A stretch of DNA of 64,000 nucleotides, taken from the NCBI RefSeq assembly GCF_021631985.1, contig NZ_CP070225.1:2232001-2296000 (forward strand). The letters are read 5' to 3'. Positions 5,113 through 64,000 of this stretch are shown here, one piece after another. The stretch is from Sandaracinus amylolyticus (GTDB lineage: Bacteria; Myxococcota_A; Polyangia; Polyangiales; Sandaracinaceae). Each line of letters begins with the position of its first letter. The stretch's first letter is position 1. The position numbers and the translations under genes are program-made. Below the pieces are notes generated by a model, which saw nothing but the letters and a program-made list of their open reading frames with translations, did not search any database and was not told the DNA's origin.

Positions 5113-7167
<2,055 letters not shown>

Positions 7168-7326: not shown

Positions 7327-8022
7327 TCAGCGCACCGACTGACGCGAGCGGATCAGATCGAGCACCGGGTCGATCCCCTCGCGCCGGTCGAGCGGGGTCG
7401 CGGGGATCGATCGCGCGATCATCGCCCTCAGCACCGCGCCGCCGTACGGCAGATCGGCGCCCCAGATCGCGCGCACGGTCGTCGCCGGCAGCTTCTCGAG
7501 GAAGAGCGCCAATCGCTCGGGCTCGATCGGCGCGAAGTCCGCGCTGTCGACGAGCACCATCTGCGGCGCGGCGACGCGGAGCTGCTCGTCCATGCGCTCG
7601 ATGCTGGGTGCCGGGACCGGGATGACGCGCGCCGCGCCGAGCGCGGCCTGCAGCTTCGACGCGAACGCGTGGCCCGCGGACACGACGATCACGATCACCG
7701 GGCGCGAGTCGACGAAGACCTCGCGCGTCACGTCGGCGCCGCGGGGCACCGCGCCCGGTCCGCTCGGAGTGACCGCGCCGATCATCGCGAGCACGTCGTC
7801 GATCACCGGATGCGCGTCCGCGCCCATGCGGCGCGCGAGCGCGCCGCGCAGCGGGCCTTGCACGAACTCGCTCGCCGCGGCCCCGCCTTGGGCGAGGTCT
7901 CCGCCGACCGCCTCGAGCGCTTCGAAGATCGCGCTGGAGACCATCGATGGCGCGACCAGGGCTTCGAGCGACTCGCGGATGATCCGGAGCTCGGGACGCT
8001 CGGGCTTCATCTGTCCGTTCAC
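7327..8022 (-). CDS. Protein with a receiver-like C-terminal domain, unknown function
   Basis: The product is about 231 residues from a GTG at 8022; an ATG at 8010 is an alternative. The first 100 residues are predicted helical and unrecognised. The C-terminal 120 residues read like a response-regulator receiver fold: a beta strand PVIVIVVSAG, an Asp at the phosphoacceptor place in PQMVLVDSADF, then alternating helices and strands. The paired N-terminal acidic residues and the conserved Lys of true receivers are not visible, so it may be a pseudo-receiver. The stop of this gene faces eno. Confidence 0.6.
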   Translation of the reverse strand: MNGQMKPERPELRIIRESLEALVAPSMVSSAIFEALEAVGGDLAQGGAAASEFVQGPLRGALARRMGADAHPVIDDVLAMIGAVTPSGPGAVPRGADVTREVFVDSRPVIVIVVSAGHAFASKLQAALGAARVIPVPAPSIERMDEQLRVAAPQMVLVDSADFAPIEPERLALFLEKLPATTVRAIWGADLPYGGAVLRAMIARSIPATPLDRREGIDPVLDLIRSRQSVR

Positions 8023-8047: not shown

Positions 8048-9418
8048 TCAAGGATTCGCCGACACGCGATCGAGGAATCCCTCGTCGTACTGACACGCGC
8101 GGAAGCTCTCGTGGTTGAGCGCGCGACGCAGCAGCCTGAGGTTCGTCACCAGCGGCGCGATGCGCGTCTCCGCGATGACGCGATCGAGCACCAGCACCGC
8201 CTCGTGGCGCGTCGGCGCGTAGGTCGTGACCGTCGCCACGACCGGGTCGTGATCGTGCTGCACGCGCGAGCGCGGCTGGATGCCGGTCTCGATGCGCACC
8301 TTGCCTGCCGGCGCGGGCGGCCAGCGCACGTCGTCGGCGCGGCCGGGGAAGGGACGACCATCACGGGGATCGGTCGCGGCCTCGATGCGCGCCTGCACCG
8401 CGTGCCCGGTCGGCGCGACGCGCGGCACCTCGGGCGGCATCGGCTCGCCGCTCGCGAGGCGGACCTGCACCTCGACGAGATCGATGTTCGCGCACGCCTC
8501 GATCACTGCGTGCTCGGGCTGGAGCAGCGGGTGGAAGCCGAGGAAGTAGAAGCTGCCGCGCGCGTCGATGAGGAAGTGCGCGCTGCCCACGCCGCGGAAC
8601 CGGAGATAGAGCGCGAGATCGATCGCGGCCGCGCCGATCGCGCTGCGCACCGCCGCGCCCTGGCGCAGGGCGTCGATCGCGGGCGCGGGCGACTCGGCGA
8701 GCACGCGCCGGTGATCCTTGCGCACGCTGACCTCGCGATCGCCGATCACGACGCAGTTGCCCTGGCCGTCGCCGACGAGCTGCACCTCGACGTGGCGCGG
8801 TCGATCGACGTGGCGCTCGACGTAGCAGGCCGCGCCCTCCCACTCGATGCCGCCGATCGCGCGCTCGAGGTCGTCGGCCGACTCGAGCGTCGGCAGCACG
8901 GTGGGCTCGCCGAGGCCGAACGCGGGCTTGATCACGAGCGGATAGCCGATCGCCTCGACGTCCTCGCGCAGCTCGCTCGGCTCGCGGATCGGGCGCTCGC
9001 TGCCGGGCAGGATGCGCAGCCCCGCGTCGAACGCGGCGTGACGGATCGAGAAGCGATCGCGATAGAGCACGAGCTCCTCGGGGGAAGGCCCGACGAACGC
9101 GATGCCCGCGGCCTCGCACGCGCGCGCCAGCGTCGGATCGTCGTCGAGCAGGCCGTACCCGGGGTGCAGCGCGGAGCACCCGGTCGCGCGCGCCGCGCCG
9201 ATCAGCGCCGCGACGTTCGCGTACGAGTCGCGCACCGGCACCGCGCCGTTCGTGCGTGGCGGGCCGACGCGCACTGCTTCGTCGCACGCCTGCGCGTGGA
9301 CGCTGTCCTCTTCGCCGTCGGTGTGGACCGTGACCGTGTCCGCGCCGATGCGCCGGCAGGTCCGCGCGACGCGCGCTGCGACCTCGCCTCGGTTGGCCAC
9401 GAGGATCTTCTCGAACAT
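8048..9418 (-). CDS. Biotin carboxylase-like protein lacking catalytic residues (probable pseudoenzyme)
   Basis: The 456-residue product aligns end to end with AccC-type biotin carboxylase: [17 protein letters not shown] at the N terminus, [16 protein letters not shown] and QPEHAVIE. Compared with my recollection of E. coli AccC, key positions differ. K116 is R122 and C230 is V230. Q233 and K238 are both R. The glycine loop is replaced by [10 protein letters not shown]276 is H281, E288 is G294, N290 is H296 and R292 is L298. K164, H236 and the catalytic-loop E303 remain. ATP grasp and Mg binding should be impaired. No biotin carrier or carboxyltransferase gene is nearby. The divergent neighbour is ybeY. 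Confidence 0.85.
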
Positions 9419-9483
9419 GCGCGCGCAGCATACGAGCGCGTCGTCGCGTGCGCGAGCGCGCGCGAGGAGTACGGTGCGCCGCG

Positions 9484-9957
9484 ATGCCGGTGCTGATCTC
9501 GGTCGAAGGTCTGTCGCGTCCCGCGATGCGCGCGAACGACGTGCGCGCGCGCGCCGAGCGGATGCTCGCGGCGATGCGTCTCGCGGATCGCGAGCTCTCG
9601 ATCCTCTTGTGCGACGACGCGACGATCCACGTGCTCAATCGCGACTACCGGCACAAGGACAAGCCGACCGACGTGCTCGCGTTCGCGATGATGGAAGGCG
9701 CGCAGAGCGGGCACGCGCCCGGCGTGCTGGGCGACGTCGTGATCTCGCTCGACACCGCGGCGCGACAGGCGCGCGAGCACGCGCGACCTCTCGAGGCCGA
9801 GGTGACGATGCTGCTCGCGCACGGTCTTCTGCATCTCCTCGGGCTCGATCACCGCGATCGCACCGAGGAAAGGCGCATGACCGCGCGCACCGACCTGCTC
9901 CGAGCCGCCGCGAAGCCGCGCCGGAAGGGGTCTCGCGATCGCTCCGGATCGCCCTGA
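9484..9957 (+). CDS. ybeY: Endoribonuclease YbeY (16S rRNA maturation factor)
   Basis: YbeY is a single-strand endoribonuclease needed for 16S rRNA 3'-end maturation and late 70S quality control. The 157-residue product carries the zinc motif [11 protein letters not shown] (HGxxHLxGxDH) near residue 120 and the upstream core [17 protein letters not shown] near residue 57. The ATG at 9484 gives a normal family length. The C-terminal 20 residues are basic and Ser-rich, beyond the usual domain. It is transcribed away from the carboxylase-like gene across a 65-bp gap. Confidence 0.95.
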
Positions 9958-9992: not shown

Positions 9993-10273
9993 GTGATTTT
10001 CGGGGGCTCGTCAGCAAATTGCGCTTGTCAGCCTCGAAAATCGGTGGCATCGAAGGGGCCGACGCGCGGAAGCCCAGGAAAAAGGGGGGTTCCGCGCAAG
10101 CGCGGGGAGGTCGATCCCTCGCGAGGTGCACACAATCACTCCGGCTTGATCGCCGTCGACGACGGCGCCCCTGATGTTTGCGGGGAGTTGGGGTGATGTG
10201 GGTGCGACCTCGACGGGGAAGGGGTCGGTCCGTCCCGCGATCGGGAAAACCGGTTCCACAGGAGGAAGAGACC

Positions 10274-10597
10274 ATGGCGAAGGCAGAGACCGCTGCGAAG
10301 AAGATGACGAAGGCTCAGGTCCTCGGTGAGATCGCGGAGAAGACCGGCCTGTCGCGCAAGCAGGTGGGCGAGGTGTTCGAGTCGCTCCGTGGCCTGATGA
10401 AGCGCGAGCTCGGCAAGCGTGGCCCCGAGCAGTTCGAGATCCCGGGCATCGTGCGCCTGAAGATCCGCAAGACCGAGGCGCGCAAGGGCGTGAAGTTCCG
10501 CAACCCGGCGACGGGTGAGACGGTCGTCCGTGACGTGCCGGCCTCGCGCAAGCTGAAGGCGCTTCCGGTGAAGGGCCTCAAGGACCTCGTCCTCTGA
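10274..10597 (+). CDS. HU/IHF-family DNA-binding protein
   Basis: The 107-residue protein has a Lys/Ala-rich N-terminal extension of about 12 residues, then an HU-like dimerisation part (TKAQVLGEIAEKTGLSRKQV) and a C-terminal arm region (FRNPATGETVVRDVPASRKL). The usual arm motif GRNPxTG is here KFRNPATGET. It should bind and bend DNA. GGAGGA ends 7 bases before the ATG at 10274. A strong terminator follows, so it is probably monocistronic and highly expressed, with a long leader. Confidence 0.88.
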   Translation: MAKAETAAKKMTKAQVLGEIAEKTGLSRKQVGEVFESLRGLMKRELGKRGPEQFEIPGIVRLKIRKTEARKGVKFRNPATGETVVRDVPASRKLKALPVKGLKDLVL

Positions 10598-10771: not shown

Positions 10772-12040
10772 TCAGAACGGGTTCGGCGGGGGTGCGCTGG
10801 GGGGCGGCGGTGCGGTCGGGGGCGGCGCGCCCGCGGGGCGCTCGAAGAGGCCGCGGACCAGGCCCGCGATGGTGCGGATCTCCGTGAACCGCACCTGCGT
10901 CTCGATGTGCAGCACGTCGTCCTCGACGCGGAAGTCGAGGCGATCGAGCGGGCCGTCGAGGCCGTAGAGCGAGACGATCACGTTCGACGCGGCGGCGCGT
11001 GCGCGCTCGGCGAGGCACGTGCTCGCGCCCTCGGCGTCGTCGTGGGTGGCGAACCGCGCTTCGCCGCGCAGGTGGGCTCCGTCGTCGCGCTCGGTCACGC
11101 CGACGCGCAGGCGCAGCGGGACCGGGCAGGGGCTGCGACGCACGAAGACCGCGACGTTCTCGACCTCGATCGAGAGGCCCTCGCCTTCGTCCATCGCGAG
11201 CAACGCGTCGGCGGGCTCGACGGTGGCGCGTCGCGCGCGTCGTGCGGCGGCGATCGCGAGCACGCGCGGGAGATCGTCGGGGCGCGCGATCACGAAGTGT
11301 CGCTCGCCCACCAGCGCGACGTCGCGCTCGATCCCGTCGGGGCTCGGCCATCGCGTGGAGGGCACGCCGGCCTCGTCGCGCCACTCGATCGGCACGCCGC
11401 GTCCCTGCGCGAATCGCTCGGCGAGCGCGCGGGGATCGGGCGCGCCCTCGCTGAGGCGTCCCGCGACGACGATGCTCGAGCGCTGGAGGTTCGGCGTCGC
11501 GATCAGCACGCGCGAGAGGTCGCGCACCGGATCGACGCCCGACTCGCCGAGCAGCGCGCGCCAGTCGGGCACCACGCGCAGGAGGCTCGCGATGTCCTCG
11601 CCGACCGGCGAGCCGCGCACACGATCCATGTCGATGCGCAGCGCGAGCTGCGCGCCGGCGGGGAGGAACGCGACCGGCGCGCCCTCGGAGAGGCCCGGCA
11701 TCGCGCCATCGACGCCGGCATCGCGACGACGACGGCGCGCGGCCGCGTCGGCGACCACGCCGGCATCGCGCGCCGCGGTCTCGCCTTCGCCGGTCGTGCT
11801 CCCGCTCGTCGTGGTGGCGGGCTCGGAGGCCGGCTCGGGCGCGGTCGCGGGCGGCGCGACCTCGACCTCGACCTCGGTCGCCTCGACGAGACCGAGCTCC
11901 ACCTCGATCGGTGCCTGGAATTCGAAGCCGGTGTCGGGCGGCGCGAGCGCGATGGTCGCGAGCACGAGCAGGCCCGCGTGCAGCGCGATCGACGCGATCC
12001 ATCCGACGGCCGCGCTGCGTCGCGCGAGCGGATCGTTCAT
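10772..12040 (-). CDS. Membrane-anchored protein of unknown function, paralogue of the 37.5-kb lipoprotein
   Basis: The product is 422 residues from the ATG at 12040, which has GGGAGG 4 bases upstream. One N-terminal membrane helix (residues 12-33) is followed by a Glu/Ala/Pro-rich linker to about residue 95, then a globular domain from FLPAGAQLALRIDMDRVR, and a Pro-rich tail ending APPPNPF. The stretch from FLPAG through SGVDPVRDLSRVLI matches the lipoprotein at 37511-38512 (FLPAGTKVIARLDMARVRRS, SGVDPVQDFDAIL). The two form a family I do not recognise. The domain is most likely periplasmic. Confidence 0.68.
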   Translation of the reverse strand: MNDPLARRSAAVGWIASIALHAGLLVLATIALAPPDTGFEFQAPIEVELGLVEATEVEVEVAPPATAPEPASEPATTTSGSTTGEGETAARDAGVVADAAARRRRRDAGVDGAMPGLSEGAPVAFLPAGAQLALRIDMDRVRGSPVGEDIASLLRVVPDWRALLGESGVDPVRDLSRVLIATPNLQRSSIVVAGRLSEGAPDPRALAERFAQGRGVPIEWRDEAGVPSTRWPSPDGIERDVALVGERHFVIARPDDLPRVLAIAAARRARRATVEPADALLAMDEGEGLSIEVENVAVFVRRSPCPVPLRLRVGVTERDDGAHLRGEARFATHDDAEGASTCLAERARAAASNVIVSLYGLDGPLDRLDFRVEDDVLHIETQVRFTEIRTIAGLVRGLFERPAGAPPPTAPPPPSAPPPNPF

Positions 12041-12196
12041 CGCGCCTCCCACGACGCCGGGTTGACCCCGGCCAGAGCACGTGAAAGAAGGGTGCGCTCC
12101 GTGGCGTGGCGACGCGCTCCGCGATCGAGCGTGGCGTCGTGCCGCACCAACGAGCGCGCTCCGATCATGGGAGCTGCGAGCTGTCTTTCGCGAACG

Positions 12197-18784: not shown

Positions 18785-18817
18785 TCGCGGGCTCGCCTCA
18801 CGCAATCACGACCAGCG

Positions 18818-20266
18818 ATGAGCCTCGCGATCCGACTCGTCCGCGCCCTCTGGGTCTTCGGGCTGATCTTCCTGAGCTACATGAGCCAGCTCGCGCTCAC
18901 GTCGCTGCTCGGCGAGGACGTGCGCGACACGAACGGGCGCGAGACGCGGCGCGTGCCCGCGTGGCTGCACGAGCGGCGCAAGCGGCTCGACGCGAAGAAC
19001 GCGAAGCGCCTCTACGAGGGCATGGTCCGGCTGCGCGGCGTCTTCATCAAGCTCGGCCAGGTGCTCTCGATCACCGGCGGGTTCCTGCCGCGCGTGTACA
19101 CGAAGGAGCTCGAGCGGCTGCAGGACAAGGTCCCTCCCCGCGACTTCCAGGAGATCCGCAGCGCGTTCGTCGAGAGCCTCGGGCGCACGCCGGAGGAGTG
19201 CTTCGCGCGCATCGACGCGGCGCCGCTCGCGGCGGCGTCGCTCGGTCAGGTGCACGTCGCGTGGATGAAGCCGGGCGAGGGCGAGACCGAGGGCCGGAAG
19301 GTCGCGGTGAAGGTGCTCTATCCCGGCATCCGCGACGTGATCCGGATCGACATGAAGGTCATCTGGCTCGCGGTGCAGGTCTACAAGCAGTTCGTGCCGG
19401 TCGTGGGGCTCGACCGCGTGCACGCGTCGCTGCTCGATCTGCTCGCGCGCGAGACCGACTACCTGCACGAGGCGCGCGCGATGGAGCGCATGGCCGCGAA
19501 CTTCGCGCGCGAGAAGGACATCTTGTTCCCCGAGGTCGTGCACGAGCTGACGACGCGCGACGTGCTGACCATGAGCTTCATGGACGGGATCAAGATCAAC
19601 CAGGTCGACGCGCTGCGCGCCGAGGGGATCGATCCGAGCGCGGTCGCGACGCGCTTCGTCGAGGCGACGTACAAGATGATCTTCGTCGATCGCTTCTTCC
19701 ACGCGGACCCGCACCCCGGGAACTTCCTCGTGCAGAAGGGGCGCACGCCGCGCAGGCCGAAGATCGTGGTGCTCGACTTCGGCGCGGTGAGCGACGTGAA
19801 GGACGATCTCGTCGACGGGATGATCGACGTGATCGGCGGTCTGCTCGAGGGCGACGGGCCGAAGCTCCTGAAGGGCTTCTACCAGATGGGGTTCGCGAGC
19901 CGCGAGGCGAACCACGAGCTGCTCGCGAAGACGGTCTACACGTACTTCGAGAAGCTGCTGCGCGTGAAGCAGCGCACGCCGGGCGCGCTGATGCGCGCGA
20001 ACGTGAAGGAGCTCGAGACGCTCGTCGATCCCGAGGTCGCGCGCGAAGAGCTGCGCGAGCTGATGCGGAGCGTGGAGTACCCGGAGGGCTGGTTCTACGT
20101 GGAGCGCGCGGCGGTGCTGGCGTTCTGGCTCGTGGGGCAGCTCGATCCCGACGTGGACGCGATGCAGGTCGGCTATCCGTACGTGATGCCGCTCCTGGAG
20201 AAGCGTCGCCGCGAAGAGCAGGGTGGCGAGCGCGAGCCCTCGGAGCCTCCGCCGAGCGACGAATAG
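18818..20266 (+). CDS. AarF/UbiB (ABC1) family atypical kinase
   Basis: The 482-residue product shows the ABC1 hallmarks: GVFIKLGQVLSITGG (KxGQ motif), an Ala-rich loop LAAASLGQVHVAW, the Lys in VAVKVLYPG, HADPHPGNFLV and VLDFGAVSDV. Family members act in quinone biosynthesis or lipid homeostasis as ATP-dependent atypical kinases or ATPases. The N terminus has one hydrophobic stretch (residues 10-33), so membrane association is likely. The last 20 residues are Glu/Ser/Pro-rich. It follows the YbjN-like gene closely. Confidence 0.92.
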   Translation: MSLAIRLVRALWVFGLIFLSYMSQLALTSLLGEDVRDTNGRETRRVPAWLHERRKRLDAKNAKRLYEGMVRLRGVFIKLGQVLSITGGFLPRVYTKELERLQDKVPPRDFQEIRSAFVESLGRTPEECFARIDAAPLAAASLGQVHVAWMKPGEGETEGRKVAVKVLYPGIRDVIRIDMKVIWLAVQVYKQFVPVVGLDRVHASLLDLLARETDYLHEARAMERMAANFAREKDILFPEVVHELTTRDVLTMSFMDGIKINQVDALRAEGIDPSAVATRFVEATYKMIFVDRFFHADPHPGNFLVQKGRTPRRPKIVVLDFGAVSDVKDDLVDGMIDVIGGLLEGDGPKLLKGFYQMGFASREANHELLAKTVYTYFEKLLRVKQRTPGALMRANVKELETLVDPEVAREELRELMRSVEYPEGWFYVERAAVLAFWLVGQLDPDVDAMQVGYPYVMPLLEKRRREEQGGEREPSEPPPSDE

Positions 20267-20324
20267 CGGCGCGGGAACCTCCGGTCGCGCGCGCTGTCCG
20301 TCCGCCGACCACGAGGTGATCGAG

Positions 20325-21716
20325 ATGGGTGAGACCTCTCCGTCGCGGCTTCCCGGCGCGATGACGGCGGCGATGCGCGCGGTGCGCGCGAGCGTTCCAG
20401 GCGAGACGTGGGCACGCGTCGCGATCGTCCGCGATCGCACGATCGTGGAGCAGCGATGGGTCGCGCCCGGTGACGCGCTCACGTGGGGACGCACCGAGCG
20501 CGCGGACGTGGTGGTGGCGAGCGCGGCGCACGAGGTCGCGCCGCTGATCGCGTGGGACGAGGGTGCGCACGCGATCGTCGGCGATGCGCAGATCACGGGG
20601 CGGGTGTCGTGGCGGGGCGAGGTGATCGCGCTCGAGGGCGAGGCGCGGCGCGTCGTGATCGAGCACGGCGCGCGGGCGCGGCTGGTGCTCGGGGACTCGA
20701 TCGAGGTGCTGATCGAGATGGCGCCGCGGCCGCCCCAGCCGCGACGTGCGCCGCTGCCGCGATCGGTCGTCGGTGCGCTCGGGCTCGACGAGCGCTTCAC
20801 CGCGATCGCCGTGGCCTCGCTGGTGCTGCACGCGACGGTGGTGACGGTGCTCGCGGAGCGCGACTGGCCGGCGCCGAGCGGGCTCGACGCGGAGCGGATC
20901 GCGATGATCGTGTTCGACGAGCCCGAGCTTCCTCCGACGGTGATCGACGCGGTGGCCGATGCGCGCGACGTGACGCCCAGCGACGACGTGAGCGAGGGCG
21001 AGGCCGAGACCGCGAGCCCGTCGAGCCCCACGCCGCGCGCGCCGCGGCCGAGCGCGCCGTCGCGCGAGTCGCTCGAGGCGATGCGCGCGGAGATCGCGAC
21101 GCAGATCGATGCGACGCTCGGTGCGATCGGCGAGGGTGGCGCGATGCGCGATCTGCTGCGCGACGGCGCGCCGATCGCTTCGGAGTCCGAAGTGATGGGC
21201 CTGGTGCGCGGCGAGGAGCACGCGGGGCTCGCGCCGCGCGCCGGAGACGTGCCGGCGATGCGCGAGGGCGGCGGGATCGAGGCGCTCGCGCGTGGGTGCG
21301 AGGGGTGCGGCGACATCGCGGTGCATCGGGTCGGTCCGGTGCGCGAGGGCGATGGCGCGCCGATGGAAGAGCGGCGCGTGCAGGTCGTCGCCCAGCCGAT
21401 CGAGGACGACGGGCCGCGGCCGGGCTTCGATCCGCGCGAGCTCGCGCGCGCGATGCGCGGTCGGATGGGCGCCGTGCGCGCGTGTTACGAGCGCGCGCTG
21501 CGGGACGAGCCGACGCTCGCGGGGCGCATCGACGTCGACGTGCAGGTCGAGCGCGTGGGCACGCTGAGCGACGTGCACGTGCGGGAGGGATCGATCGGCG
21601 ACGACTCGTTCCACGGGTGCGTGGAGCGCGCGGTACGCGCGGTGCGGCTGCCGAGCGGGCCCGAGGACGGACCGGCGAGTGTGTCGTTCCCGTTCGTGTT
21701 CGCGCCGCAGGGATGA
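20325..21716 (+). CDS. AgmX/PglI C-terminal (TonB-like) domain protein
   Basis: The 463-residue product starts at the ATG at 20325 after GAGGTGAT. The N-terminal 130 residues form a beta-rich domain (GDALTWGRTERADVVVA) that recalls a diverged FHA-like fold. A single membrane helix lies near residues 155-175. A Ser/Pro/Glu linker follows, then the AgmX-type end domain with MGAVRACYERALRDEPTLAG and CVERAVRAVRLPSGP. In Myxococcus such proteins link to gliding and envelope machines. Its stop abuts the stop of the opposing STAS-like gene with no gap. Confidence 0.8.
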   Translation: MGETSPSRLPGAMTAAMRAVRASVPGETWARVAIVRDRTIVEQRWVAPGDALTWGRTERADVVVASAAHEVAPLIAWDEGAHAIVGDAQITGRVSWRGEVIALEGEARRVVIEHGARARLVLGDSIEVLIEMAPRPPQPRRAPLPRSVVGALGLDERFTAIAVASLVLHATVVTVLAERDWPAPSGLDAERIAMIVFDEPELPPTVIDAVADARDVTPSDDVSEGEAETASPSSPTPRAPRPSAPSRESLEAMRAEIATQIDATLGAIGEGGAMRDLLRDGAPIASESEVMGLVRGEEHAGLAPRAGDVPAMREGGGIEALARGCEGCGDIAVHRVGPVREGDGAPMEERRVQVVAQPIEDDGPRPGFDPRELARAMRGRMGAVRACYERALRDEPTLAGRIDVDVQVERVGTLSDVHVREGSIGDDSFHGCVERAVRAVRLPSGPEDGPASVSFPFVFAPQG

Positions 21717-55596: not shown

Positions 55597-55701
55597 TACG
55601 AGGGGCCGTGCTCACCGTGGGGGAGAGAGCGCGGCGACGAGGGACGGGGACGCGAGGACGATCGACCAGGGACCCGTGAGCGCGGGCACCACGAGGTGAA
55701 G

Positions 55702-57702
<2,001 letters not shown>

Positions 57703-57709
57703 GCGAGAA

Positions 57710-57742
57710 GAAGCCCCGGGGTCGAGAGACCGCCGGGGCTTC
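57710..57742 (+). terminator. Intrinsic terminator after rpoD
   Basis: A perfect 10-bp stem GAAGCCCCGG/CCGGGGCTTC (57710-57719 and 57733-57742) with a 13-base loop begins 7 bases past the rpoD stop. The following GAGCTTCT is only moderately T-rich. Confidence 0.8.
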
Positions 57743-57759
57743 GAGCTTCTGGGGGACTG

Positions 57760-57816
57760 CCGAGCACGCGCAGGTGGCACGTGGACGAGCACGCGGGACG
57801 AGCACGTGCACGAGCA
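57760..57816 (+). repeat. Left terminal inverted repeat of the IVS-like element
   Basis: 57 bases beginning CCGAGCACGCGCAGGTGG and ending CACGAGCA. Its reverse complement matches the right arm at 56 of 57 positions. Internal ACGAGCACG words recur three times, so a folded transcript would form a very long stem. Confidence 0.9.
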
Positions 57817-57830
57817 GGCGGGCGCGGCGC

Positions 57831-58190
57831 TCAGGAAGCCGGGGTGCTGAAACGCGCGGCGCCCAGCTTGGTCAGCATTGCGACGACGCGCTCGATGAGT
57901 TGCTTGGCCTGGTCCGTGTCGACGCGCGCTTCGGGGATTCGCGCAATCACGTCGAGGAGCGCGCCGCACTCCATTGCTGAGCCACGAGCGATGCTCAGGT
58001 GGCGTCGCCGGTCGTCGCGCGTCGACCGGCCCATCGCTTCGGCGACGTTGAGCGGGATCGACGTCGCAGCGCGACGGAGTTGATCTCCGATCGGGCCGTA
58101 GCCACGGGGCACTCGGTCCGCGAGCACGAGCGCGAGCGAGAGGAAATCGAGTGACGTGCGGTACACATCGAGCCGTTCGTAGTCGAGCAT
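57831..58190 (-). CDS. Four-helix-bundle protein (S23/IVP family) inside the element
   Basis: The 119-residue protein starts MLDYERLDVYRTSLDFLSLA at an ATG at 58190 and has the core RRAATSIPLNVAEAMGRSTR followed by RRHLSIARGSAMECGALLDV. This matches the four-helix-bundle proteins encoded by 23S rRNA intervening sequences and by avd-like accessory genes of diversity-generating retroelements. These form pentameric bundles that may bind RNA or DNA. The biochemical role is not settled. It fills most of the 419 bp between the repeats and is on the strand opposite rpoD. No ribosome site is strong. Confidence 0.88.
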   Translation of the reverse strand: MLDYERLDVYRTSLDFLSLALVLADRVPRGYGPIGDQLRRAATSIPLNVAEAMGRSTRDDRRRHLSIARGSAMECGALLDVIARIPEARVDTDQAKQLIERVVAMLTKLGAARFSTPAS

Positions 58191-58235
58191 GCGGCCACCA
58201 TCGTCCGTGCCGCGGCGCCGGTGCCTGGGAACGCG

Positions 58236-58292
58236 TGCTCGTGCACGTGCTCGTCCCGCGTGCTCGTCCACGTGCCACCTGCACGTGCTCGG
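58236..58292 (-). repeat. Right terminal inverted repeat of the IVS-like element
   Basis: 57 bases beginning TGCTCGTGCACGTGCTCG and ending CACGTGCTCGG. It is the reverse complement of the left arm except for one base. It ends 39 bases before the tRNA gene at 58332. Confidence 0.9.
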
Positions 58293-58331
58293 TTGTTCGG
58301 TCGCTCATCCCTGGCTAGAACCGAAGCCGAC

Positions 58332-60944: not shown

Positions 60945-61041
60945 CGCACGCCTCCTCGGAGACGCGCGTTCTAGCAATCGACCGTGGGTGCTCCAAGGGC
61001 CTTTTCGCGCGGAACGACGGGCCCTCGCGCGACGCGTCGCG

Positions 61042-64000
61042 TCACTCGTCGAGCTGCGCGAGCCACGCGTGCTCGGGGAGCGCGTCGAACGCCGCGCGCC
61101 AGCGCGGATCGTCGATGCGCGCGCTGCGCGTGGCGAGGCGCGCGCGTGCGTCGGCGATCGTGAGGCGCGCGGCCTCGCGATCCCCACGAGCGATCAGCGC
61201 CTCGATGCGCGCACGGGCGATCACGCCGTGCGCGAGCTCGGGCGCGCCGGTGAGCGCGAGCGCGCACCACGCGTCCTCGGCGAGCGTGCACGCGGCGTCG
61301 ACGTCGCCGCACGCGAGCGCCGCGCTCGAGGCGGTGGCCGCGGCATAGGCACGGGTCGTCGGCGGGATCGGCGCGGCGAGCGCTTCGGTCGCGAGCCGTC
61401 GCGCGCGCGGGGCGTCGCCCTCGGCGAGGGCGACCGTCGCGAGCAGGTTGCGCGCGAAGCCCTGGTTCACGCCGTCGCCTGCTGCGTCGGCGCGCGCGAT
61501 GCAGCCCTCGAGCTCGGTGCGCGCCTCGGCGAGACGGCCACGTCGCGCGAGCGCGAGCCCGAGCACGCCGCGCGCGTACGCGACGAGGAAGCCCGCGCCG
61601 TGGGTTTCGCCGGTGTCGACGGCGATCCGCGCCGCGTCGAGCGCTTCCTCGACGAGGCCGAGGCCGAGGCTCGAGTACGCGACGTCGATGCGCGCCAGAC
61701 CGAGCGCGCCTGCGTCGCCCGCGCGCTCCGCGTGTCGTGCAGCGCGCTCGGCGTGGCGGCGTGCTGCCGCAGGGTCTCCTTCGCCGAAACGTGCGCGGTA
61801 GACGCGGACGAGCTCGATCCATGCGAGCGAGCCGGGGTCGCGCTCCTGGCCGTCCTGCCGCGCGAGGCGCGCGAGGATGGGATCCGCGATGGCGATCTGG
61901 CCCGCGCGATAGAGCACGATCGCGGCGATCGCGTGGGCGCGTACCTGCACCGAGCGCGCGTCCTCGGGGAGCTCCGCGGTGATGATCTGCCCGATGATCT
62001 CCGCGGCTCGCGCGAGCGGGAGCGCGCTGCCGGCGAAGAGCAGCGCGGACGCGGCGCGGCTCCAGAGCGGGCTGCCAGGTGGTGCGCTCGACATCACGGC
62101 GCGCGCGGCGTCGTGCAGCTCCGCGAAGCGGGCGCTCCAGGCGAGGGCCTCGACCTCGATCATCGCGATCGATCCCGCACGCTCGGGGTGCGATGCCGCG
62201 CCGAGGGCGAGCGCGCGTCGCGCGTGATCCACGGCGCCCTCGAAGTCGCCGCCCTCCAGGGCCTGCTCGCCCGCCCGCTCGAGCCACACGATCGCGAGCG
62301 TGGGCTCGCTGCCTCGCTGCAGGTGCTCGGCGAGGAGCGTCGCGTCGCGCGTGTTGCTGCGCTCGAGCCATGCGGCGGCGAGCCGATGACCGAGCCGCCG
62401 ATCGTCGTCGGTGAGCATGTCGTACGCGGCTTCGCGCACGAGCTCGTGGTGGAACGAGACCTCGCGATCGCGCGCGAAGCCGGTGCCTCGCACCTCGACG
62501 ATCTCGTGATCGACGAGCTCGCGCAGCGCCTCGTCGATCGGCTCCGCGCCTCCGACCAGCGCGATGACGCCCGCGAGCGGCGCGTCCTTGCCGAACACGC
62601 TCGCCGCGCGCGCGACCCGACGTGCGGGCCCCGAGAGCGACTCGAGGCGCGCCTGCAGCATCGCGAGCACCGAGTCGGGCAGCGCGTCCTCGCCGGGCTC
62701 GAGCGCGACGCGGCGCAGGATCTCCTCGAGGAAGAGCGCGTTCCCCGCGCAGCGCTCGACGATGCGCGCGATCAGCGCGGCGGGCGCGTCGTCGCCGAGC
62801 ACGCTGCGCGCGAGGCGCTCGCAGGTGCGACGGCCGAGCTCGCCGAGGCGCAGCTGCGACGCGCCGCGCTCCGCCCAGAGCGAGGGAAACGGATCGTGCA
62901 CCTCGGGGCGGGCGAGGCCGAGCACGAGCAGCGGGCGATCCGCGAGCGCGCGCAGCGTGCCGTCGAGGGCGCGGATCGACGGCAGATCGGCCCAGTGCAG
63001 ATCCTCGAGCACGAGCATCAGCGGGCCGCGCTCGCAGCGCGCGGCGAGCAGATCCTGGAACGCGCGGCGGAGCTGATCGCCCATGCGCATCGGATCCATT
63101 CGCGCCGGGGCGAGCTGGACGTCGGCGGCGTCGGTGATGCGCGCGCCCACGAGCTCGGCGAGGAACGTCGCGGTGCGTGCGCGATCGTCCTCCTCGGGGA
63201 TCTCGCGCGCCGCCCACGCGACGATCGCCTCGCGCTGCACGCTCGCGTCCGACCCAGGGTCGAGGTCGAGCGCGCGCCGCGCGATGCGCGCGGCGAGCTG
63301 CCACGGCGATCGCCGTCCGACGCTGTCGGCGCGCGCCCCGACGACCACGACGTCGCCGCGCGCGTCGACGCGGGCCACGAGCTCCGTCGCGAGCCGCGAC
63401 TTTCCGGCGCCCGGCGGCCCGGTGACGAGCACTGCTCGCGCGACGCGCGCTTCGACGCACTCGTCGAGGGTCGCGTCGATCATCGCGATCTCGCGCTCGC
63501 GACCGGCGAACGGGAGGTGCATCCCGACGGCGCGCCCTTCGCCCGCGACGTCGCGCATCGCGCGCAGCTCGAAGCCGCCGCCCTCGCGCACCACGATCTC
63601 GAAGCGCGCGTCGAGCAGCCCGGCGGTCGCATCGTCGATCGTGATCGTCGCGCCCGTGCTCTCGCGAAGCAGCGCCTCGGCGCGCTCGCGCGCTTCGCCG
63701 AGCAGCGTCGAGGCTGCGAAGAGCCCGCGTCCGGTCGCGATCGCGATCGATGCGTCGGGGAGCACGCCGCGCGAGAGGAGCGCGCATCGTGCCGCGCGCG
63801 CCGCGAGATCGGTCGCGGTCGTGGTGCCTCGCAGCGCGACGAGCACGCTGCGATCGGGCAGCACCTCGGGCTCGACGCCGAGCGGACGCAGCGCCGCGAT
63901 CAGCGCGCGGCGCGGGGTCGGGTGCGCGGGATCGATCGACGCGAGCACGACCGCGACGAGGCGCTGCTCGTCCTCGCCCAGCACCGCGGTGGTGAGCGGT
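61042..64000 (-). CDS. Large AAA/NB-ARC-type ATPase with TPR-like repeats (partial at window edge)
   Basis: The frame is open to the window edge, so the N terminus is missing. The visible 986 residues hold a first domain that resembles a degenerate nucleotide cyclase (GEDEQRLVAVVLASIDPAHP), then a P-loop ATPase (LVTGPPGAGKSRLATELVAR near residue 185; VLEDLHWADLPSIRAL as Walker B) and about 400 residues of TPR-like helices. In myxobacteria such proteins often have a Ser/Thr kinase domain in front. That is plausible here but lies outside the window. A signalling or regulatory role is inferred. Confidence 0.82.
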   Translation of the reverse strand, partial: PLTTAVLGEDEQRLVAVVLASIDPAHPTPRRALIAALRPLGVEPEVLPDRSVLVALRGTTTATDLAARAARCALLSRGVLPDASIAIATGRGLFAASTLLGEARERAEALLRESTGATITIDDATAGLLDARFEIVVREGGGFELRAMRDVAGEGRAVGMHLPFAGREREIAMIDATLDECVEARVARAVLVTGPPGAGKSRLATELVARVDARGDVVVVGARADSVGRRSPWQLAARIARRALDLDPGSDASVQREAIVAWAAREIPEEDDRARTATFLAELVGARITDAADVQLAPARMDPMRMGDQLRRAFQDLLAARCERGPLMLVLEDLHWADLPSIRALDGTLRALADRPLLVLGLARPEVHDPFPSLWAERGASQLRLGELGRRTCERLARSVLGDDAPAALIARIVERCAGNALFLEEILRRVALEPGEDALPDSVLAMLQARLESLSGPARRVARAASVFGKDAPLAGVIALVGGAEPIDEALRELVDHEIVEVRGTGFARDREVSFHHELVREAAYDMLTDDDRRLGHRLAAAWLERSNTRDATLLAEHLQRGSEPTLAIVWLERAGEQALEGGDFEGAVDHARRALALGAASHPERAGSIAMIEVEALAWSARFAELHDAARAVMSSAPPGSPLWSRAASALLFAGSALPLARAAEIIGQIITAELPEDARSVQVRAHAIAAIVLYRAGQIAIADPILARLARQDGQERDPGSLAWIELVRVYRARFGEGDPAAARRHAERAARHAERAGDAGALGLARIDVAYSSLGLGLVEEALDAARIAVDTGETHGAGFLVAYARGVLGLALARRGRLAEARTELEGCIARADAAGDGVNQGFARNLLATVALAEGDAPRARRLATEALAAPIPPTTRAYAAATASSAALACGDVDAACTLAEDAWCALALTGAPELAHGVIARARIEALIARGDREAARLTIADARARLATRSARIDDPRWRAAFDALPEHAWLAQLDE

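Follow-up and report, generated by a model that had tools for sequence, protein, structure and literature searches.

A probable pseudoenzyme of the biotin carboxylase family at a conserved enolase-ybeY locus of myxobacteria

The window, a 64-kb stretch of a genome of 10.96 Mb in two contigs, carries on its minus strand (8048-9418) one open frame for a biotin carboxylase (BC) homologue of 456 aa, which we consider, with a probability of roughly 0.93, to be a true pseudoenzyme of the BC family. As judged from sequence comparison, the protein would have preserved the complete BC fold, but would have lost productive binding of Mg-ATP as well as the carboxylation of biotin. At one chromosomal place, related bacteria carry orthologues that are intact, half-dead or fully dead, and this natural series allows one to ask whether a second function came before or after the loss of catalysis. 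The initial annotation had proposed an enzyme retired from catalysis and retained for a different function, a proposal that is supported by the residue loss in all nine homologues of the family of the window genome, by intact syntenic orthologues, by open frames and by low dN/dS. For the specific use, we infer a regulatory or binding role.

Catalytic residues and predicted fold

Homology to AccC along the whole length, as initially described, is reflected in the three Pfam domains Biotin_carb_N, CPSase_L_D2 and Biotin_carb_C, which cover the entire product, and the closest sequence relatives in the PDB are BC subunits of acyl-CoA carboxylases and AccC. With 320.2 bits the protein scores below the cut-off of the accC equivalog (TIGR00514, 626.5), and the best 80 of 588 relatives in public genomes show 30-37% identity and look like ordinary BCs judging by their names and the low identity; this set may omit closer records and carries no information on distribution. 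When the window protein was aligned with AccC of E. coli K-12, with its orthologues and with the five BC paralogues encoded in the own genome, just 4 of the 12 catalytic or ligand residues were found to be retained. K116, Q233, R235 and K238 of the E. coli enzyme correspond to R122, R233, D235 and R238, and E276, E288, N290 and R292 to H281, G294, H296 and L298, so that E276H, E288G, N290H and R292L (E. coli numbering) mark a stretch of lost metal and catalytic sites (residues 281-298, 8525-8578, minus strand). The glycine loop SGGGGGRGM of AccC is likewise lost, leaving a degenerate ATP glycine-rich loop at residues 164-175 (8894-8929, minus strand) in both the residue alignment and the model. 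The alignment with E. coli AccC thus bears out the earlier claim that E276, E288, N290, R292, K116, K238, Q233 and the glycine loop are gone. Retained are K159 (window K164), H209, H236, E296 (E302) and R338 (R344); among the scaffold residues previously listed as kept, K164, H236 and the R338 equivalent (R344) stand, whereas the glutamate given as E303 is in fact E302, position 303 being a histidine.

A full-length BC fold, comprising the N, ATP-grasp and C domains, is predicted to be intact. An AF2 model computed from the window protein together with 25 BCs of public-genome loci has reached a mean pLDDT of 90.1 and a pTM of 0.90, and, in the modelling check that had been suggested, it superposes on E. 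coli BC (2v58_A) with a Z of 51 over 439 residues at 2.0 Å (VIA-align), with 33% identity over these aligned positions; Z values against the E. coli and H. influenzae BCs amount to 50-51. Residues 169-174, in the former glycine loop, form the only stretch below a pLDDT of 50. A shift in register, named at the outset as a possible refutation, and misalignment in general have been excluded, as the motifs to the left and right of every changed site are in register in separate alignments and as the model superposes on E. coli BC.

The same state has been observed throughout the family of the window genome, here f1 (f1 to f12 being anonymous family labels), in which a BC homologue is present in nine of ten genomes, the tenth being 75% complete. 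K116, Q233, K238, E276, E288, N290 and R292 are kept in 33/33 intact orthologues and 12/12 canonical BCs, and in none of the nine f1 members (0/8 readable at K116). Over all 12 residues, E. coli AccC, the intact orthologues and the paralogues of the own genome retain 11-12, the f1 members 2-4 and the members of a further family, f4, 0-1. The orthologue check proposed initially has found the lost positions absent in all nine f1 homologues. Some replacements are uniform, namely Q233R, K238R and E288G (each 9/9), K116R (8/8 readable) and E276H (8/9, with one Arg), and E171 (window numbering) occurs in 9/9, while the positions of N290 (T, H or R) and R292 (G, L, S or V) vary. According to this census the active site is gone in all of f1; some of the replacements have become fixed, while others are free to vary.

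Two alternatives bear on this pattern. The uniformity of Arg122, Arg233, Arg238, His281 and Gly294, and of Glu171, may be taken to mean that the pocket has been rebuilt, these fixed residues binding a different, probably anionic ligand in a metabolite sensor or in new chemistry. We regard such a rebuilt pocket as unlikely, since the same positions are occupied by different and variable residues in f4, where one genus does not even possess the lid of the ATP site, since the N290 and R292 positions vary within f1 itself, and since the glycine loop has the lowest prediction confidence in the model. That a residual or unusual carboxylase activity persists would be compatible with the K159, H209, E296 and R338 equivalents, which most f1 members keep, and with one orthologue outside f1 (G029) that keeps 9/12 residues. 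It is nonetheless highly improbable, given that both metal-ligand glutamates, N290, R292, K238, K116 and the glycine loop have been lost together in f1 and that f4 copies retain at most one of the 12 residues.

Orthologues at the enolase locus and the number of losses

The gene lies between a convergent enolase gene (5887-7167, plus strand) and the divergent ybeY (9448-9957, plus strand; rRNA maturation RNase), both in conserved synteny, and the locus further includes an HU-type DNA-binding protein (Bac_DNA_binding; 10178-10597, plus strand). Elsewhere in the window, three long minus-strand ORFs, putative genes (18809-21316, 55615-58308 and 60974-63787; 836, 898 and 938 aa), have given no Pfam match at E 0.001. 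An order-wide search has returned matches at E 1e-82 or better in 98/144 genomes, a cut-off which, as the gene tree reveals, mixes orthologues with canonical BCs; in that tree the orthologues form an order-wide clade separate from the canonical enzymes. Within the reach of the contigs, f1, f9 and f10 share the gene order enolase, BC, ybeY, HU gene. At the enolase-ybeY locus of the sister families, six of eight orthologues read 12/12 residues (f9 5/7, f10 1/1), the exceptions being two f9 copies, G039 with 3/12 and G029 with 9/12.

The strongest degeneration at this locus has been found in f4, whose copies were located by reading the surroundings of enolase in 20 additional selected genomes and by tracing a motif: none of the 26 sequences read retains more than one of the 12 residues. 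The lid of the ATP site (E. coli 133-200), which in the active enzymes shuts over ATP, is deleted in 15 copies of the f4 genus g9 and in G035, with 1-2 of 68 positions aligned. The deletions in g9 (L209-L211, L232-L240 and L242-L244) and in G035, a member of another genus (L230), possibly represent two separate events. Family f6 contains one genome with a dead copy, in the form of two contig fragments that have one residue left each. For the copies of f2 (G010) and f11 (G019), homology rests on position and weak profile matches (19 and 30 bits, and 10 and 11 bits, respectively), with no BC model matched in Pfam or NCBIfam, and both have been left out of the residue census. The clade members read in f5, f7 and f12 are intact and located elsewhere, and no BC is found near enolase in G004.

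In some f4 genomes (L217, L218, L220 and L212) the pseudo-BC directly follows enolase on the same strand, which indicates that the linkage to enolase has been kept despite the changed arrangement. Two f4 pseudo-BCs bear long Arg/Gly-rich C-terminal tails (L218:3564-4889 and L231:473-1795, in the downstream parts of the same ORFs) and that of L217 a basic Ser/Arg tail, all of which resemble RNA-binding tails. An RNA-binding role, as suggested by the ybeY and enolase link and by these basic tails of L217, L218 and L231, has been set aside, most copies having no tail.

Whether catalysis has been lost once or repeatedly has been approached through the neighbouring genes. A tree of 34 genomes, computed from 1170 columns (partly missing) of the products of enolase, ybeY, the HU gene and the gene that corresponds to 10772-12052 of the window, places the dead G039 as sister to the intact G042 of the same genus with a support of 99.3/100, and the f11 genome with its dead copy among the f9 and f10 genomes (94.2/99); this tree represents one locus, G019 and G029 having entered without enolase, and several of its deep splits are weak (e.g., 9.8/36 and 12.7/30). 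Because a dead copy stands beside an intact one within a single genus, catalysis has been lost more than once. The full gene tree implies fewer losses, as it groups G029 and G039 with f1 (97/94; the pair itself 82/38). After removal of f1 and G029, however, G039 joins the intact G042 (83/86), whereas G029 without f1 and G039 finds no firm position (44/61), and upon addition of f4 the long-branched rows become arranged according to branch length. In view of this sorting the flanking genes have been relied on instead, and long-branch attraction is likely to cause the grouping of f1, G029 and G039. Two independent losses, in f1 and in G039, are well supported, and more than two are likely.

Selection, the C-terminal segment and the neighbouring gene C8

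Values of dN/dS have been obtained by the Nei-Gojobori method with Jukes-Cantor correction, which ignores the strong GC bias, and only close pairs are relied on. For G000/G008 of the own genus (456 codons) a dN/dS of 0.099 has been determined, with 0.160 for enolase and 0.196 for ybeY of the same pair; G006/G007 of another f1 genus have given 0.055 from few changes. Lid-less f4 copies range from 0.053 to 0.103 in the 12 pairs of lowest dS, and two other f4 pairs reach 0.245 and 0.289; deeper pairs within f1 lie at 0.25-0.54, partly from saturated dS. Open frames have been found in all 17 f4 sequences checked. These values indicate that purifying selection persists on the dead BC. A pseudogene has been ruled out by dN/dS and the open frames. 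The reading that the gene is decaying and about to disappear could point to the fast evolution in some lineages, the deleted lid of one genus, the near-unrecognisable f2 and f11 copies and the absence near enolase in G004; we assign it hardly any probability in view of the 17/17 open f4 frames and the 0.05-0.10 in close pairs, the f1 values being comparable to those of enolase and ybeY.

Constraint has moved to another part of the protein. Among six regions compared in chosen subsets of 4-8 rows per group, E. coli 391-440 shows the lowest identity of all between canonical BCs and the intact f9/f10 orthologues (0.32), and the highest between f1 and these intact orthologues (0.57) as well as between f4 and them (0.54, other regions 0.27-0.38). 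The conserved segment of dead and intact orthologues corresponds to residues 400-449 of the window protein (8072-8221, minus strand) and contains FRACQYD. The related pattern FRAGQYD occurs in 26/289 genomes of the class and in 0/134 outside the order; it undercounts, as it misses the window protein itself. The dimer face has been preserved in part, R16 and R19 being kept in 20/20 dead sequences and R366 in 20/22, and R16 and R366 belong to the BC dimer interface together with R19. In PMC5059739, R19 and E23 are located at this interface, and E23R and R19E are described as known interface mutants. The E23 position reads Arg in 19/20 dead and 11/12 intact rows of the clade, so dimerisation may differ from that of E. 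coli BC. Taken together, the observations fit C-terminal and dimer faces that would still bind something.

On this basis, a binding or scaffold function through the C-terminal segment and the dimer face, in f1 perhaps exerted with the neighbour C8, appears the most probable role of the window protein, somewhat better than an even proposition. The ancestral BC at the locus may already have had a second, non-catalytic role, exerted through the alpha/beta segment at its C-terminus and through its dimer face, which would have made catalysis dispensable and allowed its repeated loss, the binding role being retained.

C8, an unannotated gene (7327-8022, minus strand; 231 aa, GTG start), lies on the same strand 25 bp downstream of the pseudo-BC, so the initial description of the latter as a single gene does not hold. 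C8 matches nothing in Pfam or NCBIfam, and Pfam is silent for all nine f1 members; nor has a Response_reg or receiver profile matched any of the nine f1 C8 proteins or seven homologues. Its predicted secondary structure alternates strands and helices, and Asp159, which follows a predicted beta-strand, is invariant in 23/23 aligned rows (21 distinct). In these features C8 resembles response-regulator receiver domains, from which it differs in matching neither a Pfam nor a receiver profile, and it belongs to an uncharacterised family with receiver-like features. The single-sequence model (pLDDT 41) is too low in confidence for a fold search, a profile search of solved structures has yielded weak matches (best E 0.13), and no relatives have been found in viral contigs. 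C8 itself shows a dN/dS of 0.105 (G000/G008).

A C8 homologue adjoins the BC in all nine f1 genomes that have one, in eight on the same strand, and opposite orientations have been observed in G002 and G014. In two genomes of one genus (L178:1044-1709 and L179:953-1615) C8 occupies the same place in opposite orientation, a local inversion or an assembly error. Dead copies in the f4 genus g20, in f11 and in f6 are also adjoined by C8, which has not been found beside the f9 and f10 copies, the other f4 copies read, the dead G039 or the partly dead G029. C8 homologues occur in 53/183 genomes of the order, usually away from BC, with six matches of the family in the window genome. In Sandaracinaceae-like genomes the pseudo-BC and C8 would probably be made together and form a scaffold or regulatory module of two proteins. 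The adjacency may also be mere linkage, considering the absence of C8 beside most dead f4 copies, G039 and G029 and its opposite strand in G002 and G014. More tentatively still, the order-wide family might have acquired its non-catalytic C-terminal function first, followed by independent losses that include the whole ATP lid and, in at least one family, by a stable receiver-like two-protein module. If true, the pseudo-BC with its receiver-like partner would constitute a new regulatory device made from a core metabolic enzyme.

Genuine carboxylases and related pseudoenzymes

The own genome encodes four BC paralogues with 12/12 residues and one with 11. Its accC scores 640 against the cut-off of 626.5 and adjoins an accB-like gene that carries a biotinylation motif, and with this genuine accB-accC pair elsewhere, fatty-acid synthesis need not depend on the window protein. 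The motif [EV][ASGT]MK[MLVT] has been found in none of the ORFs of the 64-kb window, in agreement with the initial statement that no carrier is nearby, and in 20 neighbourhoods of BC copies it has given a single match, in L042, which has been judged spurious; the motif is narrow, and an atypical carrier could escape the scan. These results concern the possibility that the dead BC regulates the real ACCase through mixed dimers with AccC or capture of AccB, with an effect like that of plant BADC. The intact accB-accC pair, the BC fold with R16, R19 and R366, and the precedent from plants, where a non-catalytic protein related to an ACCase subunit takes part in assembly (PMC11926652), would be in line with it. 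We nevertheless consider ACCase regulation improbable, as E23 is replaced by Arg or Lys in the clade rows examined, also in intact ones, unlike in most canonical AccC, as the 20 loci read contain no credible biotinylation motif close to the gene, and as one genus has lost the lid.

The automatic label 'acetyl-CoA carboxylase biotin carboxylase subunit' would mislead at this locus. Repeated catalytic loss together with preservation by selection suggests a second, non-enzymatic job in a group of soil myxobacteria. Pseudoenzymes as such are known, but no report of one derived from biotin carboxylase has been found in the literature searched, most subscription journals lying outside its coverage. 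With AccC (E. coli; TIGR00514) the window protein shares the full-length fold, the three Pfam domains and 33% identity, and it differs in keeping 4/12 residues and reaching 320 bits against 626.5. The BADC proteins of the heteromeric ACCase of plants are, according to PMC11926652, non-catalytic subunit relatives acting in assembly, and are similar in being carboxylase-subunit derivatives that persist for binding or assembly. They are, in contrast, relatives of the carrier BCCP and not of BC, and act within ACCase, a setting that is no more than a possibility for the window protein. Tubulin ligases possess an ATP-grasp-like fold. Among them, TTLL12 has been described (PMC3520985) as a relative of tubulin tyrosine ligase with a pseudoenzyme-like character, and resembles the window protein in having a ligase-like domain without the expected activity, but is eukaryotic, belongs to another subfamily and combines this domain with a SET-like one.
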